Shown one piece after another: positions 15,867-23,297 of a stretch of DNA of 64,000 nucleotides. The translations under genes were made by a program, and so were the position numbers. Below the pieces are notes generated by a model. The model did not search any database. It was given only the letters and a program-made list of their open reading frames with translations, and was not told where the DNA came from. Source of the stretch: Sporosarcina pasteurii. Its GTDB lineage: Bacteria > Bacillota > Bacilli > Bacillales_A > Planococcaceae. The stretch covers positions 1,364,001 to 1,428,000 of the forward strand of contig NZ_CP160452.1 in NCBI RefSeq assembly GCF_041295575.1, given 5' to 3'. Within the stretch, counting starts at the first letter, position 1. Every line of letters starts with the position of its first letter.

Positions 15867-17051
15867 TTATTTTTGCAAGGATATTTGAGCAACACCTGTT
15901 TGAATGGCTGCCTCGCTCACAGCTTTTGAAACAGCTTCTACAACTCTTGAATCAAAAGGATTAGGAATAACATAGTCTTCATGTAGCTCAGCAGGCTCTA
16001 TTAAAGCTGCAATCGCTTTCGTTGCGGCTAGTTTCATCTCGTCATTAATATCGGTTGCTCGCACATTTAATGCACCTCTAAAAATACCTGGGAAAGCTAA
16101 TACATTATTTACTTGGTTCGCAAAATCAGAACGTCCCGTTGCGATGACTCTAACGCCGAACTCTTTCGCAATGTCTGGAAGGATTTCAGGCATTGGATTA
16201 GCAAGTGCAAAAACAATCGGTTCATCATTCATCTGATCAATTAATTCTTTTGTTAAAACATTGGCAACAGAAACTCCGATGAACACATCTGCATCTTTTA
16301 AAGCATTTTTTAAATCGCCTGTTTCATTTGAGCGATTTGTAATTTCAGCAATAAATTCTTTTTGCTCATTCATACCATGTGGGCGTTCTTTATAAATAAT
16401 ACCTCTTGAATCGCACATAATGATATTCGTTACGCCAAGTGAAAGGAGCAATTTAGTAATTGCAATCCCAGCAGCTCCTGCTCCATTGACAACAACTTTG
16501 ATATTTTCAATTTCTTTATTGACCAACTTTAATGAGTTCATTAGTCCTGCCGAAACAACGATAGCCGTTCCGTGTTGATCATCATGAAACACTGGAATTG
16601 AACATTCTTCTCTTAAACGCTCTTCAATTTCGAAACAACGAGGTGCTGAAATATCTTCCAAATTAATACCGCCGAATGTAGGACTTAGAACTTTGACAGT
16701 ACGAATAATTTCTTCTGTATCGGTCGTATCTAAGCAAATTGGAAACGCATCAATATTTGCAAATTTTTTAAGGAGTAATGCTTTCCCCTCCATAACAGGT
16801 AAAGCAGCTTCGGGACCAATGTCACCGAGACCTAAGACAGCTGTCCCGTCCGTTACGATGCCAACAAGATTGCCTTTCATCGTATAGTCATACACATTTT
16901 TTGGTTCATTATGAATTTCGACACATGGATCAGCGACGCCAGGCGAATACGCTAAACTTAGATCGACTTGATTTTCAAGGGGTACTTTTGATTGAATCTC
17001 CATTTTCCCTTGATGCTTTCGATGTAATTCAAGAGCAGTGACATTTTCCAT
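15867..17051 (-). CDS. NAD(P)-dependent malic enzyme
   Basis: Oxidatively decarboxylates malate to pyruvate. At 394 residues it is the short bacterial form. Signatures: AYSPGVADPC near residue 33, GTAVLGLGDIGPEAALPVMEGKA near 70 with the catalytic lysine, FHDDQHGTAIV near 155, the nucleotide-binding VVNGAGAAGIAI near 185, and ALANPMPE near 280. AGAGGAC precedes the ATG. Two 9-bp direct repeats 21 bp apart lie 68-97 bases upstream and may be a LytTR operator. With isocitrate lyase and malate synthase next door, it would drain glyoxylate-derived malate to pyruvate. Confidence 0.94.
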   Translation of the reverse strand: MENVTALELHRKHQGKMEIQSKVPLENQVDLSLAYSPGVADPCVEIHNEPKNVYDYTMKGNLVGIVTDGTAVLGLGDIGPEAALPVMEGKALLLKKFANIDAFPICLDTTDTEEIIRTVKVLSPTFGGINLEDISAPRCFEIEERLREECSIPVFHDDQHGTAIVVSAGLMNSLKLVNKEIENIKVVVNGAGAAGIAITKLLLSLGVTNIIMCDSRGIIYKERPHGMNEQKEFIAEITNRSNETGDLKNALKDADVFIGVSVANVLTKELIDQMNDEPIVFALANPMPEILPDIAKEFGVRVIATGRSDFANQVNNVLAFPGIFRGALNVRATDINDEMKLAATKAIAALIEPAELHEDYVIPNPFDSRVVEAVSKAVSEAAIQTGVAQISLQK

Positions 17052-17112: not shown

Positions 17113-17156
17113 ACTGTTGTAAATAGTGTAGGCGTTCCGGTAAATAGTTAAACAGA
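17113..17156 (-). promoter_or_regulatory. Candidate LytTR operator upstream of malic enzyme
   Basis: The 9-mer GTAAATAGT occurs at 17119-17127 and 17140-17148, exactly 21 bp apart in the same orientation. LytTR-family regulators typically bind two 9-bp direct repeats about 21 bp apart. It is flanked by ACTGTTGTA (17113-17121) and the reverse complement of TCTGTTTAA (17148-17156), which resemble TCTGTTNTA motifs upstream of isocitrate lyase. Direct observation; the regulator assignment is inference from the adjacent LytTR gene. Confidence 0.5.
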
Positions 17157-17332
17157 TGGTACGTTAAATGAGTGTTTAGATTTATAATTTTTAACACATT
17201 TGAAGAATAAAATCAACCCTAAGAGATTCCGAGTTTTTTAAATTAAAAGACAAACAGCTACTTAAAGATTACCTCTATAGAAGGAATAAAATAAGCCCAT
17301 TATTGGAGTAGTATTTATATTTATTAAAAAAA

Positions 17333-17983
17333 TTAAAATCCGAGCTTTTTGCGAATATGTGTTGAATAAGATTGACTGACAGGTAATACGGTACCGTTTT
17401 TTAGGGTAATCAACATGTTTGATGAAAAATCACGAGAAATTTCTAAAATATGTTGAATATTTACGATGTAAGAACGATGAATGCGTAGAAAGAAATCCGG
17501 CAATTTTTCAATTAAATCTTTTAATGTATACATAGATTGATAGGCTATGTCATTTTTATAAAACCAAGTTTTCTTTTGTAAACTTTCAATATGTGATATT
17601 TTGTCAACTGCAATTGGGTGCCAACAGTCTTCATTCCTGCCAGTTAAAAAAGTCATTGGTTCTTTATAAAGTGAATGATGATTAGGAGGGAAACTCACAA
17701 GGAGGACTCCTTCTATATCATCTACTATCACTGGATAACCAATCCCGTAATAGGAAGAGCTGTTTTCATCACCTTGCATGTACTTTTCAACTTTACTTTT
17801 CTTTTTTAATACATCATGCACAATGCTGTTAGCGTCAACTGATTGACCAACTACAGCTCGGATGTCATGCATACCAGGAACATAATACAAATAGCGTCCA
17901 TTGGCTATAACTGCAACCGAGGCTTCTCTTGGTAACCATTCTTTTAAAATACTTACATATTGTACAGCCGCATCAATTCCCAT
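17333..17983 (-). CDS. LytTR-family transcriptional regulator with N-terminal sensor domain
   Basis: Single-component DNA-binding protein of about 216 residues. The C-terminal half (about 125-216) is a LytTR domain, with FLRIHRSYIVNIQHI and a final PVSQSYSTHIRKKLGF. The N-terminal half has no receiver domain. It resembles the small-ligand sensor found in some chemotaxis proteins (YLYYVPG, then YGIGYPVIVDDIEGVLLVS). The frame opens at ATG 18019, but that codon lacks ribosome-site spacing; AAGGGGG nine bases before ATG 17983 makes the latter the better start. It is divergent from isocitrate lyase and upstream of malic enzyme on the same strand, so it probably controls these genes. Neither ligand nor target is proven. 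Confidence 0.82.
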   Translation of the reverse strand: MGIDAAVQYVSILKEWLPREASVAVIANGRYLYYVPGMHDIRAVVGQSVDANSIVHDVLKKKSKVEKYMQGDENSSSYYGIGYPVIVDDIEGVLLVSFPPNHHSLYKEPMTFLTGRNEDCWHPIAVDKISHIESLQKKTWFYKNDIAYQSMYTLKDLIEKLPDFFLRIHRSYIVNIQHILEISRDFSSNMLITLKNGTVLPVSQSYSTHIRKKLGF

Positions 17984-18029
17984 TCCACTTTTCCCCCTTA
18001 ATTGTTCAATCTTATTCATCCTACTATAA

Positions 18030-18134
18030 GCTGTTTTGTCGCGGAATAGTCTGTTCTATCTAAATAGTATGACAAAAAGAAGATTCTGTTATAGATTAGT
18101 ATACAAGAATTAAATCTGTTGTAAAACAGTTTAA
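18030..18134 (+). promoter_or_regulatory. Repeated TCTGTTNTA motifs between the LytTR gene and isocitrate lyase
   Basis: TCTGTTNTA occurs at 18050-18058, 18085-18093 and 18115-18123, with a weaker copy GCTGTTTTG at 18030-18038. ACAGTTTAA at 18126-18134 resembles known AgrA/ComE half-sites. CTAAATAGT (18060-18068) repeats eight of nine bases of the direct repeat found before malic enzyme. The density of these motifs in a 187-bp divergent promoter region suggests a multi-site operator. Confidence 0.45.
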
Positions 18135-18170: not shown

Positions 18171-19454
18171 ATGACAAAAAGGAAAGAGCAAGCAAAACAG
18201 TTAGAAGAAATGTGGGCGACTGACCCAAGATGGAAAGGAATCAAACGTAATTACAGCGGTGAGGATGTTGTAAAATTAAGAGGTTCTCTTCAGATTGAAT
18301 ATACGCTAGCGCAAAAAGGTGCAGCTCGTTTATTTAAATCAATTCATGAGGAAGACTTCGTCAATGCACTTGGTGCACTAACTGGAAACCAAGCTGTTCA
18401 ACAAGTAAAAGCAGGTTTACAAGCAATTTACTTAAGCGGTTGGCAAGTAGCAGCAGATGCGAACTTAGCTGGTCAAATGTACCCGGACCAAAGTTTATAT
18501 CCAGCAAACAGTGTTCCAAAAGTTGTAGAGCGAATCAACCAAGCACTTCAACGAGCAGACCAGATCGACCACGCAGAGGGCAGAGAAGATGGGTTTGATT
18601 GGTTTGCACCAATCGTCGCCGATATGGAAGCGGGCTTTGGTGGTCCTTTAAACGTTTTCGAATTAATGAAGGGCATGATTGAAGCGGGTGCGGCTGGTGT
18701 CCACTTGGAAGACCAACTGGCTTCAGAAAAGAAATGTGGTCACTTAGGGGGGAAAGTATTACTTCCAACACAAAACGCGATTCGTAATCTAACAGCCGCA
18801 CGCCTAGCAGCAGATGTTCTTGGTGTTCCAACTGTGATTATCGCACGTACGGATGCGGATGCTGCAGATATGGTTACGAGCGATATTGACCCAGTAGATC
18901 AGGAGTTTATTACAGGGGAGAGAACACCAGAAGGTTTCTTCCGCACGCGTGCAGGGATTGACCAAGCGATTTCAAGAGGACTCGCTTATGCACCTTATGC
19001 CGATTTAATTTGGTGTGAAACATCAACGCCGAATCTTGAAGAAGCAAAACAATTCGCGGACGCAATCCATGCTGAATATCCTGATAAATTGCTTGCTTAC
19101 AACTGTTCACCATCATTTAACTGGAAAGCCGCTTTGTCTGATGAAGAGATTGCAAATTATCAACGTGAACTTGGAAAACTTGGCTACAAGTTCCAGTTCG
19201 TAACATTAGCAGGCTTCCACTCATTAAACCACAGTATGTTTGAATTGGCACATGAGTATAAGGATAACGGCATGGCAGCTTACTCTAAGCTACAGCAAGC
19301 TGAATTTGCGAGCGAATCAAAAGGATATACAGCAACGAGACACCAACGTGAAGTTGGAACAGGTTATTTCGATGATGTAACACAAGTTATTTCAGGAGGA
19401 ACATCCTCAACAACTGCAATGACAGGATCAACTGAAGAAGCGCAATTTGTTTAA
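18171..19454 (+). CDS. aceA: Isocitrate lyase
   Basis: First enzyme of the glyoxylate bypass, splitting isocitrate into succinate and glyoxylate. It has 427 residues from ATG 18171, which stands nine bases after GGGAGG; the open frame reaches back to 18147. Signatures: [19 protein letters not shown] at the N-terminus and the catalytic motif [11 protein letters not shown] near residue 190, with the active-site cysteine. WLAG-type segments such as [12 protein letters not shown] and the C-terminal [10 protein letters not shown] are also seen. It is divergent from the LytTR regulator. Malate synthase G follows after a small gene. Confidence 0.97.
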
Positions 19455-19804: not shown

Positions 19805-19829
19805 TACGAATAAAATGGGGGAGTATTCA

Positions 19830-22013
19830 ATGGAAAACTATGTGCAAGTAAATGACCTAAAAGTTTCAGAAATTCTTTATGATTTTATTAACAACGAGGC
19901 ATTACTAAATTCTGGTATTGAACAAGTGGATTTCTGGGGACGTTTTAGTGAGGTTATTCATGAATTAACGCCAGAAAATAAACAGCTATTGCTTGAGCGT
20001 GAAACATTCCAAAAGCAAATAAATGATTGGCATAAAAAAAATACAGGCACGATTGTGTTAAAACAGTATAAAAATTTTCTTGAAGAAATTGGTTATTTAG
20101 AGTCTAAAGTTGAAGATTTTAAAGTTTCAACTAGAAATGTTGATGATGAAATTGCCAATCAAGCAGGGCCACAACTTGTCGTACCGGTTAACAACGCTCG
20201 ATATGCCCTGAATGCTGCGAATGCAAGATGGGGGAGCTTATATGATGCGCTTTATGGCACGGATGTTATTCCAAGTGATAATGGGCAAGAAGTTGGAAAA
20301 CAATACAATCCGGTTCGTGGAAATGCAGTTATTTCTTATGCGAAGAATTTTTTAAATCACACAATTCCTTTTAAGGATACAGAACATCATCAAATCCAAA
20401 GCTATTTTATTGAACAAGGTGCTGTCTATGCGAAAACAGAAGACGGTCAAACAACTTCTTTAGAAAACCCGTCACAGTTTAAAGGGTTTCAAGGCCTTTC
20501 TACAAAACCAACTGCTCTTTTATTCGTCAATAACGGGCTTCATGTTGAAATTCAAATCGATCGCAATCACCCTATTGGAAAGACGGATCCAGCAGGTGTG
20601 AAAGACGTTTATTTAGAGGCCGCACTTTCAACAATTATGGACTGTGAAGATTCAGTCGCAGCTGTAGATGCGGAAGATAAAGTAGAGGTTTATCGAAATT
20701 TATTAGGTCTGATGAAAGGGAATTTAACTTCATCTTTTGAAAAAGACGGTCAAATGATGACAAGATCTTTAAACCCAGACCGTTTATATAAAACGCCATC
20801 AGAAGAAAAGTTGGAATTACGTGGCAGGTCCCTAATTTTCATCCGCAACGTCGGCCATCTAATGACTAATCCTGCTGTGTTAGATAAAAACAACGAAGAA
20901 GTTTATGAAGGCTTATTGGATGGTGTTATCACATCACTGTTAGCCCTCCATAATTTTGACGAGGACAATACATTTAAAAATTCCCTATATAATTCTATCT
21001 ATATTGTAAAACCAAAAATGCATGGCTCAAAAGAAGCCGCGTTCGCGAATAAACTATTTAACCGTATAGAAGATATGCTCGGTTTGGAACGATGCACGAT
21101 AAAAATTGGGCTCATGGACGAAGAACGCCGCACTTCTTTGAATTTAAAAGCTTGTATCCGTGAAGTGAAAGATAGAATTGCATTTATTAATACAGGCTTT
21201 CTAGATCGTACAGGTGATGAGATTCATACGTCTATGGAAGCAGGCGTTATGACTCGTAAAAATGACATGAAAAAGACAACTTGGTTAAAAGCTTATGAAC
21301 AGTCCAATGTAGGCGTTGGGATACAATGTGGTTTACATGGTCATGCGCAAATTGGAAAAGGCATGTGGGCAATGCCAGATAAAATGGCACAAATGCTAGA
21401 AGAGAAAATAAATCACCCACAAGCCGGAGCGAACACAGCTTGGGTTCCTTCCCCAACAGCAGCCACTTTACATGCCCTACATTACCATCAAGTGAATGTC
21501 CAAGAAATCCAGAAAAAAATTACGCATTCTGATGACATACAAGAAGCCATCTTAGAAGTTCCTTTAGAAAATAAACCAAATTGGCGCCCGAAAGAAATTC
21601 AAGAGGAACTCGATAATAACGCTCAAGGAATTTTAGGGTATGTTGTGCGTTGGATTGACCAAGGGGTCGGCTGCTCAAAAGTGCCAGATATTAATGATGT
21701 AGGCCTTATGGAAGACCGTGCAACATTACGAATTTCCAGTCAGCATATTGCGAATTGGTTGCATCACGGCATTTGTACAGAAGACCAAGTGCATGAAACG
21801 ATGAAGCGAATGGCGGTAGTAGTAGATGAACAAAATAAAGAGGATACCTCGTACCGCCCGATGGCCCCAAACTTTGGCGAATCAATCGCTTTCCAAGCAG
21901 CTTGCGAATTGGTGTTCGAAGGATTGAATCAGCCGAATGGCTATACAGAACCGATTTTACACAAGCGTCGACTTGAGGCGAAAGAGAGATTTCATTCAGT
22001 AGTAAATAAGTAA
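19830..22013 (+). CDS. glcB: Malate synthase G
   Basis: Second glyoxylate-bypass enzyme, condensing glyoxylate with acetyl-CoA to malate. It has about 727 residues, the length of the monomeric G isoform and not the shorter AceB (A isoform). Motifs: [17 protein letters not shown] near residue 270, [17 protein letters not shown] near 335, [15 protein letters not shown] near 390, and [20 protein letters not shown] near 475. ATG 19830 is chosen because GGGGGAG ends eight bases upstream; the in-frame ATG 19815 has no such site. It ends at a strong terminator. Confidence 0.96.
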
Positions 22014-22213: not shown

Positions 22214-22609
22214 ATGAAAAAAATACTAGATATCCCGCTTAAAAAAATATTTCTTATCATTATCCAAATAGCGGGCTTATATCTATTAAGTGTATTAGGG
22301 GAGTTTATCTCTAATTTGTTAAGCTTATCGATACCTGGAAGTATTATTGGGCTATTACTATTATTGGTCGGATTACATTTACGTATCATTCCAGAATCGT
22401 TTATTCAGGAAGGTGCAGGGTTATTATTAATAATTTTACCACTTTTCTTCATTCCAGCGACCGTTGGGATCGTCCAACATCCAGAATTTCTTTCGGTAAA
22501 AGGGATTTTCCTAATACTAATCGTCATGATTAGTACCTTCTTAACGATGATTGTCGCGGGACGAATGAGTGAATGGTACGAAAAGAAGCAAGTAAAGGAG
22601 GAATCCTAA
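22214..22609 (+). CDS. LrgA/CidA-family membrane protein
   Basis: Small membrane protein of 131 residues with four hydrophobic helices and the family motif LSIPGSIIGLLLLLVGLHL near residue 38. LrgA/CidA proteins were first described as holin-like modulators of autolysis. A B. subtilis pair (PftA/PftB) instead acts as a pyruvate transporter. The neighbouring malic enzyme and glyoxylate genes make a transport role attractive here, but that is inference. It is paired with the LrgB-family gene one base downstream. Confidence 0.88.
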   Translation: MKKILDIPLKKIFLIIIQIAGLYLLSVLGEFISNLLSLSIPGSIIGLLLLLVGLHLRIIPESFIQEGAGLLLIILPLFFIPATVGIVQHPEFLSVKGIFLILIVMISTFLTMIVAGRMSEWYEKKQVKEES

Positions 22610-22610
22610 T

Positions 22611-23297
22611 ATGCAAAACTTATTAACGCCAATCATTGTGATTATTACGACGGTAGGTTTATTTTTGATGATGAGGCGTTTATACGGTCGTTATCCAAAT
22701 GCTGTTTTCCATCCAATGTTAACGACAACGACCTTGATTTGTATAGGACTATTACTATTTAATATTCCTTATGCGGATTATATGAAGGGCGGGAAGTGGA
22801 TTGAACAATTCTTAGGTCCATGTGTGGTCGCACTTGCCTATCCTTTATACAATCAAAGAAAGATTATGATGCAATATAAAAAAGTAATACTACTAGGCAT
22901 CTCATCGGGCTTAATTACCGCGATGGGGAGCATTATCTTTTTTGCAAAATTATTTAAAGTTGAAGAAGAAATTGTCTATACCATTATTCCTAAGTCAATC
23001 ACAACACCTGTTGCAATTCAGATAAGTGACACAATGGGAGGCATTCCATCTTTAACGGCTATTTTTGTCATGATTGCTGGATTTAGTGGAATTATTGTCG
23101 GCCCTTACGTGATGAAATACACAGGAATTGAAAGTCGATTAGGAAAGGGGCTTGCGTTGGGCAGTGCATCGCATGCCTTAGGCGTTGCGAAATCAACTGA
23201 ATACGGAGAACTGTCACTATCTATGGCATCAGTTGCGATGACGCTTAGTGCAATCATTGGCTCGTTGATTGGTCCGCTTCTCGTTTTGTTCGTGTAG
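22611..23297 (+). CDS. LrgB/CidB-family membrane protein
   Basis: Partner of the preceding LrgA-like protein. It has 228 residues and multiple membrane helices. The LrgB signature PKSITTPVAIQISDTMGGIP is near residue 127, and GSASHALGVAKSTEYGE is near 183. AAAGGAGGAAT lies in the end of the upstream gene and the two genes are one base apart, so they are translated together. The role could be cell-lysis control or small-acid (pyruvate) transport. Confidence 0.9.
   Translation: MQNLLTPIIVIITTVGLFLMMRRLYGRYPNAVFHPMLTTTTLICIGLLLFNIPYADYMKGGKWIEQFLGPCVVALAYPLYNQRKIMMQYKKVILLGISSGLITAMGSIIFFAKLFKVEEEIVYTIIPKSITTPVAIQISDTMGGIPSLTAIFVMIAGFSGIIVGPYVMKYTGIESRLGKGLALGSASHALGVAKSTEYGELSLSMASVAMTLSAIIGSLIGPLLVLFV

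Follow-up and report, generated by a model that had tools for sequence, protein, structure and literature searches.

A one-component LytTR regulator and a triple-repeat array at the isocitrate lyase promoter: a very probable switch for two-carbon metabolism in Sporosarcina pasteurii and its relatives

The window analysed here is a 64,000-nucleotide stretch of the Sporosarcina pasteurii genome. It encodes a receiver-less LytTR protein between malic enzyme and isocitrate lyase (aceA), an arrangement proposed in the initial annotation and borne out by Pfam matches and gene coordinates (Table 1). Malic enzyme is encoded on the same strand 3′ of the regulator. The aceA gene is divergent and is followed by malate synthase G. 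The whole genome encodes three LytTR proteins. The listed start of the regulator ORF, 18019, falls within half-site 1 of the array described below. A start at 17983 sits behind AAGGGGG and is likely better suited to the homologues, which align from approximately residue 8 of the resulting protein.

Table 1. Genes and predicted promoter elements at the regulator-aceA locus (positions in the window).
Feature	Coordinates	Strand	Remarks
Malic enzyme, unsupported as target	15867..17051	-	Pfam malic domains; array score of leader -14
GTAAATAGT pair	17119..17148	.	Spacing 21 bp; considered a local, unconserved repeat
One-component LytTR regulator	17333..17983	-	216 aa from likely start; ORF extends to 18019
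LytTR half-site 1 (predicted), TTCATC	18015..18020	+	Matrix score 10.3
LytTR half-site 2 (predicted), TTTGTC	18035..18040	+	Matrix score 10.4; 20 bp from site 1
LytTR half-site 3 (predicted), TCTATC	18055..18060	+	Matrix score 6.5; 20 bp from site 2
Probable weak -35 of aceA, ATGACA	18069..18074	+	Position conserved; 17 bp to -10
Extended -10 of aceA, TGTTATAGATT	18087..18097	+	Conserved family-wide
Palindrome CTGTTGTAAAACAG, aceA leader	18116..18129	+	Such a palindrome in 83/97 promoters
aceA, isocitrate lyase, inferred target	18171..19454	+	NCBIfam NF011645, E 1e-240
Malate synthase G	19815..22013	+	Pfam malate synthase domains

In one chain, the regulator combines a sensor-like N-terminal domain (about 115 aa) with a C-terminal LytTR domain. 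The LytTR domain spans ORF residues 133–226 (Pfam E 5e-24; 84.8 bits against a cut-off of 22.6) and matches the LytTR structure PDB 3d6w (E 1e-18; TM 0.91 by target). No receiver domain was matched over the N-terminus in Pfam or NCBIfam, and no membrane segment was predicted by inspection. The N-terminal domain is kept across the family, except in four genomes described below (group g4). It matched no named Pfam family (best hit HisK_sensor, E 0.1), and no PAS family was matched in Pfam at E 1. An AlphaFold model built with six sequences has a mean pLDDT of 81 and shows a mixed helix/strand N-terminal domain. Its only matches to folds beyond LytTR are weak ones of Cache/PAS/GAF type, among them KinD with pyruvate and DctB with succinate. 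The modeled fold would suit a small-carboxylate sensor and is no demonstration of one. Naming of the sensor domain was dropped because the HisK_sensor hit stood alone in Pfam and the fold matches were weak.

Alignment of 108 aceA promoters from the family revealed three direct repeats with the consensus TTYRTC, spaced 20–21 bp apart (almost always 20/20, 20/21, or 21/21). The array stops 8 bp 5′ of a weak -35 and is followed by the extended -10 and, usually, the palindrome CTGTTN4AACAG. The -35 is degenerate in many genera. A weight matrix was built from 82 aceA promoters and applied to all 108 with a cut of 15; most scored aceA promoters thus overlap the training set, while the g4 promoters and the acetyl-CoA hydrolase promoters described below lie outside it. 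The maximum score in 540 shuffled sequences was 14.4. The 20/20 array at aceA is the top-scoring tile of the 64-kb window (27.3; runner-up 15.4), and only one extra triple-site match was found in this genome, within a gene. The third half-site lies 36 or 37 bp 5′ of the -10 element in 96/97 promoters. Within the window, matrix scans detected no separate array for malate synthase G, and this gene is possibly transcribed by read-through from aceA. An LrgA/LrgB-like gene pair lies downstream of malate synthase G (22214–23297); no TTYRTC array was found 5′ of it in the window by matrix scan. Elsewhere, LrgA/LrgB pairs are under LytTR control and are linked to pyruvate transport.

Regulator homologues (E ≤ 1e-33) were found in 220 of the 261 family genomes, and aceA in 234/261. 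Widening the homologue search to the order gave the same set as the family. The four g4 genomes additionally carry a sensor-less regulator adjoining aceA. With g4 counted as regulator-bearing, 223 genomes have both genes, 11 have aceA only, one (G125) has the regulator only, and 26 have neither; 12 genomes are discordant (Fisher p 5e-26), where a few genomes were assigned by elimination and the counts are not independent because the genomes are related. Divergence of the regulator from aceA is the rule among the loci inspected. Arrays scoring >15 are present at aceA in 88/88 promoters with the regulator adjacent, in 5/5 with the regulator elsewhere, and in 4/4 with the sensor-less regulator, the last outside the training set. 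In total, the array is found in 97/97 promoters from genomes with the regulator, drawn from 16 genera, versus 0/11 from genomes without it, where the best score is -6.8. The array tracks the regulator in every sampled genome, and the regulator is therefore very probably a dedicated switch for two-carbon metabolism.

Natural variants of the locus separate its components. Five g13 genomes carry the regulator away from aceA, whose promoter still has the array. There the regulator is divergent to a malate synthase-like gene, identified by reading its sequence rather than by family search. The promoter of this gene has an array too, along with the same -10 and palindrome, and a gene resembling glycolate oxidase also adjoins the regulator. 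Eight g12 genomes encode aceA behind malate synthase G, and neither regulator nor array was found in them. The same holds for three genomes of a single genus (G171, G215, G224), in which aceA lies behind a leuD-like gene. In these three genomes (L101/L093, L102/L092, L107), the segment bounded by the aceA -10 and the palindrome is present but inverted. In g4 (L103–L106), the aceA-linked regulator retains only its LytTR domain (about 113 aa) and the array is kept. What the sequence shows directly is which domains make up the regulator, that the array exists at a fixed position, that it is lost together with the regulator, and that it persists at unlinked aceA genes.

The array could instead serve only to autoregulate the regulator gene, or could be bound by another protein, with aceA as a bystander. 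The two genes are divergent and share the intergenic region, and half-site 1 lies within the regulator leader, as autoregulation would allow. However, the five genomes with the regulator elsewhere keep the array at aceA, the array never varies in its orientation or its distance from the aceA -10, and it is missing at 11/11 aceA genes examined in genomes without the regulator. We consider a bystander role for aceA very unlikely.

The initial annotation had proposed a one-component LytTR regulon controlling both malic enzyme, through a repeat of GTAAATAGT, and aceA, through TCTGTTNTA. The motifs are present where it placed them. GTAAATAGT occurs at 17119 and 17140, TCTGTTNTA occurs at 18050, 18085, and 18115, and the reported 8/9 match to the 9-mer upstream of aceA is CTAAATAGT. 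Their reading as operators did not hold. The GTAAATAGT pair was found only here and in the near-identical genome G232, and it is missing in three relatives that keep the gene order (L006, L008, L009), an outcome that the initial annotation had itself named as refuting its proposal. Shuffled versions of the malic enzyme leader contain an exact 9-mer repeat at 20–22 bp in 1% of cases and, at any spacing of 10–60 bp, in 16%; the whole window has 14 exact 9-mer repeats at 20–22 bp. Malic enzyme was rejected as a target, since the pair is absent in relatives and the leader scores far below the cut for an array. The gene was observed beside the regulator in none but the closest relatives. The TCTGTTNTA trio is not a LytTR array because its copies are 35 and 30 bp apart. 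They belong to three distinct elements, namely the third half-site (CTGTTCTATC), the extended -10, and the left arm of the palindrome. Half-sites 1 and 2 (TTCATC at 18015 and TTTGTC at 18035) had been overlooked. The operator first proposed is thus, by alignment, mostly predicted core promoter plus an unrelated palindrome. Control of both genes through these motifs is extremely improbable, and the malic enzyme half of the regulon is refuted as far as sequence allows; the glyoxylate bypass half is strongly supported by synteny across the family, co-occurrence, and the complete association of the array with the regulator.

The palindrome in the aceA leader was considered as a piece of the LytTR operator and rejected, as its symmetry differs from that of the direct repeats. 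CTGTTN4AACAG occurs at six sites genome-wide versus four for a reversed control, most of them intragenic. It suggests a site for a second aceA regulator. The g13 genomes have the variant CTGTATTAATACAG. An identical 14-mer also lies 5′ of an oxalate/formate-antiporter-like gene (L174).

Tandem arrays of TTTATC or TTCGTCA with a period of 20–21 bp were also observed (L161–L164, L168–L170), intergenic where inspected. They number dozens to hundreds in G051, G050, G044, G027, G016, and the g2 genomes. Their core and period equal those of the aceA operator; because the search used this pattern, part of the resemblance reflects selection. G051 has 577 matches versus 4 for the reversed pattern. Such arrays are also present in G068 and G073, where the aceA-type regulator was not found.

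Full-length homologues elsewhere in the class Bacilli show roughly 33–44% identity. In 23/25 loci, family-internal paralogues included, homologues adjoin an acetyl-CoA hydrolase/transferase gene (PF02550/PF13336). The aceA-trained matrix detected triples above the shuffled maximum 5′ of 13/22 acetyl-CoA hydrolase genes, mostly with 20/20 spacing. The best arrays score 31.7 (L136), 28.3 (L157), and 26.8 (L143). No array was found by matrix scan at the family's own acetyl-CoA hydrolase-linked paralogues (L153, L154, L158). Sequences resembling CcpA cre sites (e.g., GAAACCGCTTTC) lie near acetyl-CoA hydrolase starts in L136, L139, L141, L149, and L157, downstream of the array. They suggest catabolite repression superimposed on the LytTR switch at these genes.

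In a midpoint-rooted tree, the aceA/malate-synthase type forms one clade (98/93) amid acetyl-CoA-hydrolase types. One rewiring is therefore the simplest history, and the tree suggests a single rewiring within C2 metabolism. On balance, we favor a hitherto undescribed LytTR one-component family that spans several Bacilli families, has a sensor domain without a Pfam match, and is dedicated to two-carbon metabolism. Its ancestral partner would be an acetyl-CoA hydrolase/CoA-transferase, it would have been rewired once in Caryophanaceae to the glyoxylate bypass with the triple-repeat operator kept, and its ligand would be a C2 metabolite.

LytTR DNA-binding domains have been described chiefly in virulence, competence, and CO sensing. 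In two-component regulators such as AgrA, LytR, BtsR, and YpdB, the LytTR domain is shared with the present protein, but a phosphorylated receiver is found only in theirs; AgrA structures are among the top fold matches. The regulator and array fit one-component LytTR regulators of the RcoM/CoxC kind, with a single chain and three predicted repeats. RcoM of Paraburkholderia xenovorans is a PAS-heme LytTR one-component CO sensor that activates transcription (PMC11347149). Like the present regulator, it is a one-component protein with a C-terminal LytTR domain, dedicated to one carbon pathway (PMC11347149). Its array resembles that at aceA, with three direct repeats of 8 bp separated by spacers of 12–13 bp (period 20–21 bp) 5′ of the -35 (PMC11347149). 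The half-site differs (TTCNNGCA in RcoM, TTYRTC here), and the RcoM sensor is a heme-binding PAS domain serving CO metabolism, whereas the N-terminal domain here has no significant PAS-family sequence match. The LRS regulators HdrR and BrsR are likewise receiver-less and use direct repeats with a 20–21 bp period about 8–10 bp 5′ of the -35 (PMC6193735). They have two repeats and a membrane inhibitor gene (PMC6193735), in contrast to the three repeats here. No membrane inhibitor gene was found near the regulator, whose neighbors are aceA and malic enzyme, or elsewhere malate synthase or acetyl-CoA hydrolase.

Activation of aceA is favored because RcoM and LRS, with repeats of the same period just 5′ of the -35, activate. 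The main rival keeps the same regulator and operator but has the regulator repress aceA and release it on ligand binding. CoxC of Afipia carboxidovorans, which also has a C-terminal LytTR domain and three direct repeats (TTNNNGCN), is a repressor, and the sensor-less g4 proteins would on this account repress constantly or be vestigial. CoxC differs in its MHYT membrane sensor and in its operator, which lies over the -35 and mediates CO-responsive repression; the aceA array lies 5′ of the -35, not over it. The -35 is also degenerate in many genera, as expected of an activated promoter. Repression is accordingly judged unlikely, and activation remains the preferred reading.

From these comparisons, we infer that the regulator probably senses a C2 metabolite, binds the triple array, and most likely activates aceA, and with it malate synthase. 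It would be a one-component transcription factor acting in the cytoplasm, and a small molecule from two-carbon metabolism would bind to its N-terminal domain; the candidates are acetate, acetyl-CoA, acetyl phosphate, and glyoxylate. This ligand class is proposed because isocitrate lyase, malate synthase, glycolate oxidase, and acetyl-CoA hydrolase converge on acetate, acetyl-CoA, and glyoxylate. The LytTR domain would bind the three TTYRTC repeats on one helix face, ending 8 bp 5′ of the aceA -35, and the bound regulator would most likely recruit RNA polymerase to the aceA promoter. Isocitrate lyase would then be made during growth on acetate or similar substrates, and malate synthase through read-through or a second array. 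Counting against this mechanism, the sensor-less g4 regulators keep the array and malate synthase G in the window lacks one.

In the literature searched, nothing on topic paired LytTR with isocitrate lyase, malic enzyme, acetyl-CoA hydrolase, or acetate metabolism, which is no proof of novelty as most subscription papers lay outside the search. No description of isocitrate lyase control in this bacterial family was found in the same literature. If the proposal is true, a central pathway would have a LytTR protein as its dedicated switch, and the protein would contain a new candidate sensor for a C2 metabolite. Hundreds of genomes, among them cases of regulator loss, unlinking, and sensor loss, would provide a clean case for regulator-operator co-evolution, and the same case would show a regulator and its operator shifting between pathway genes.
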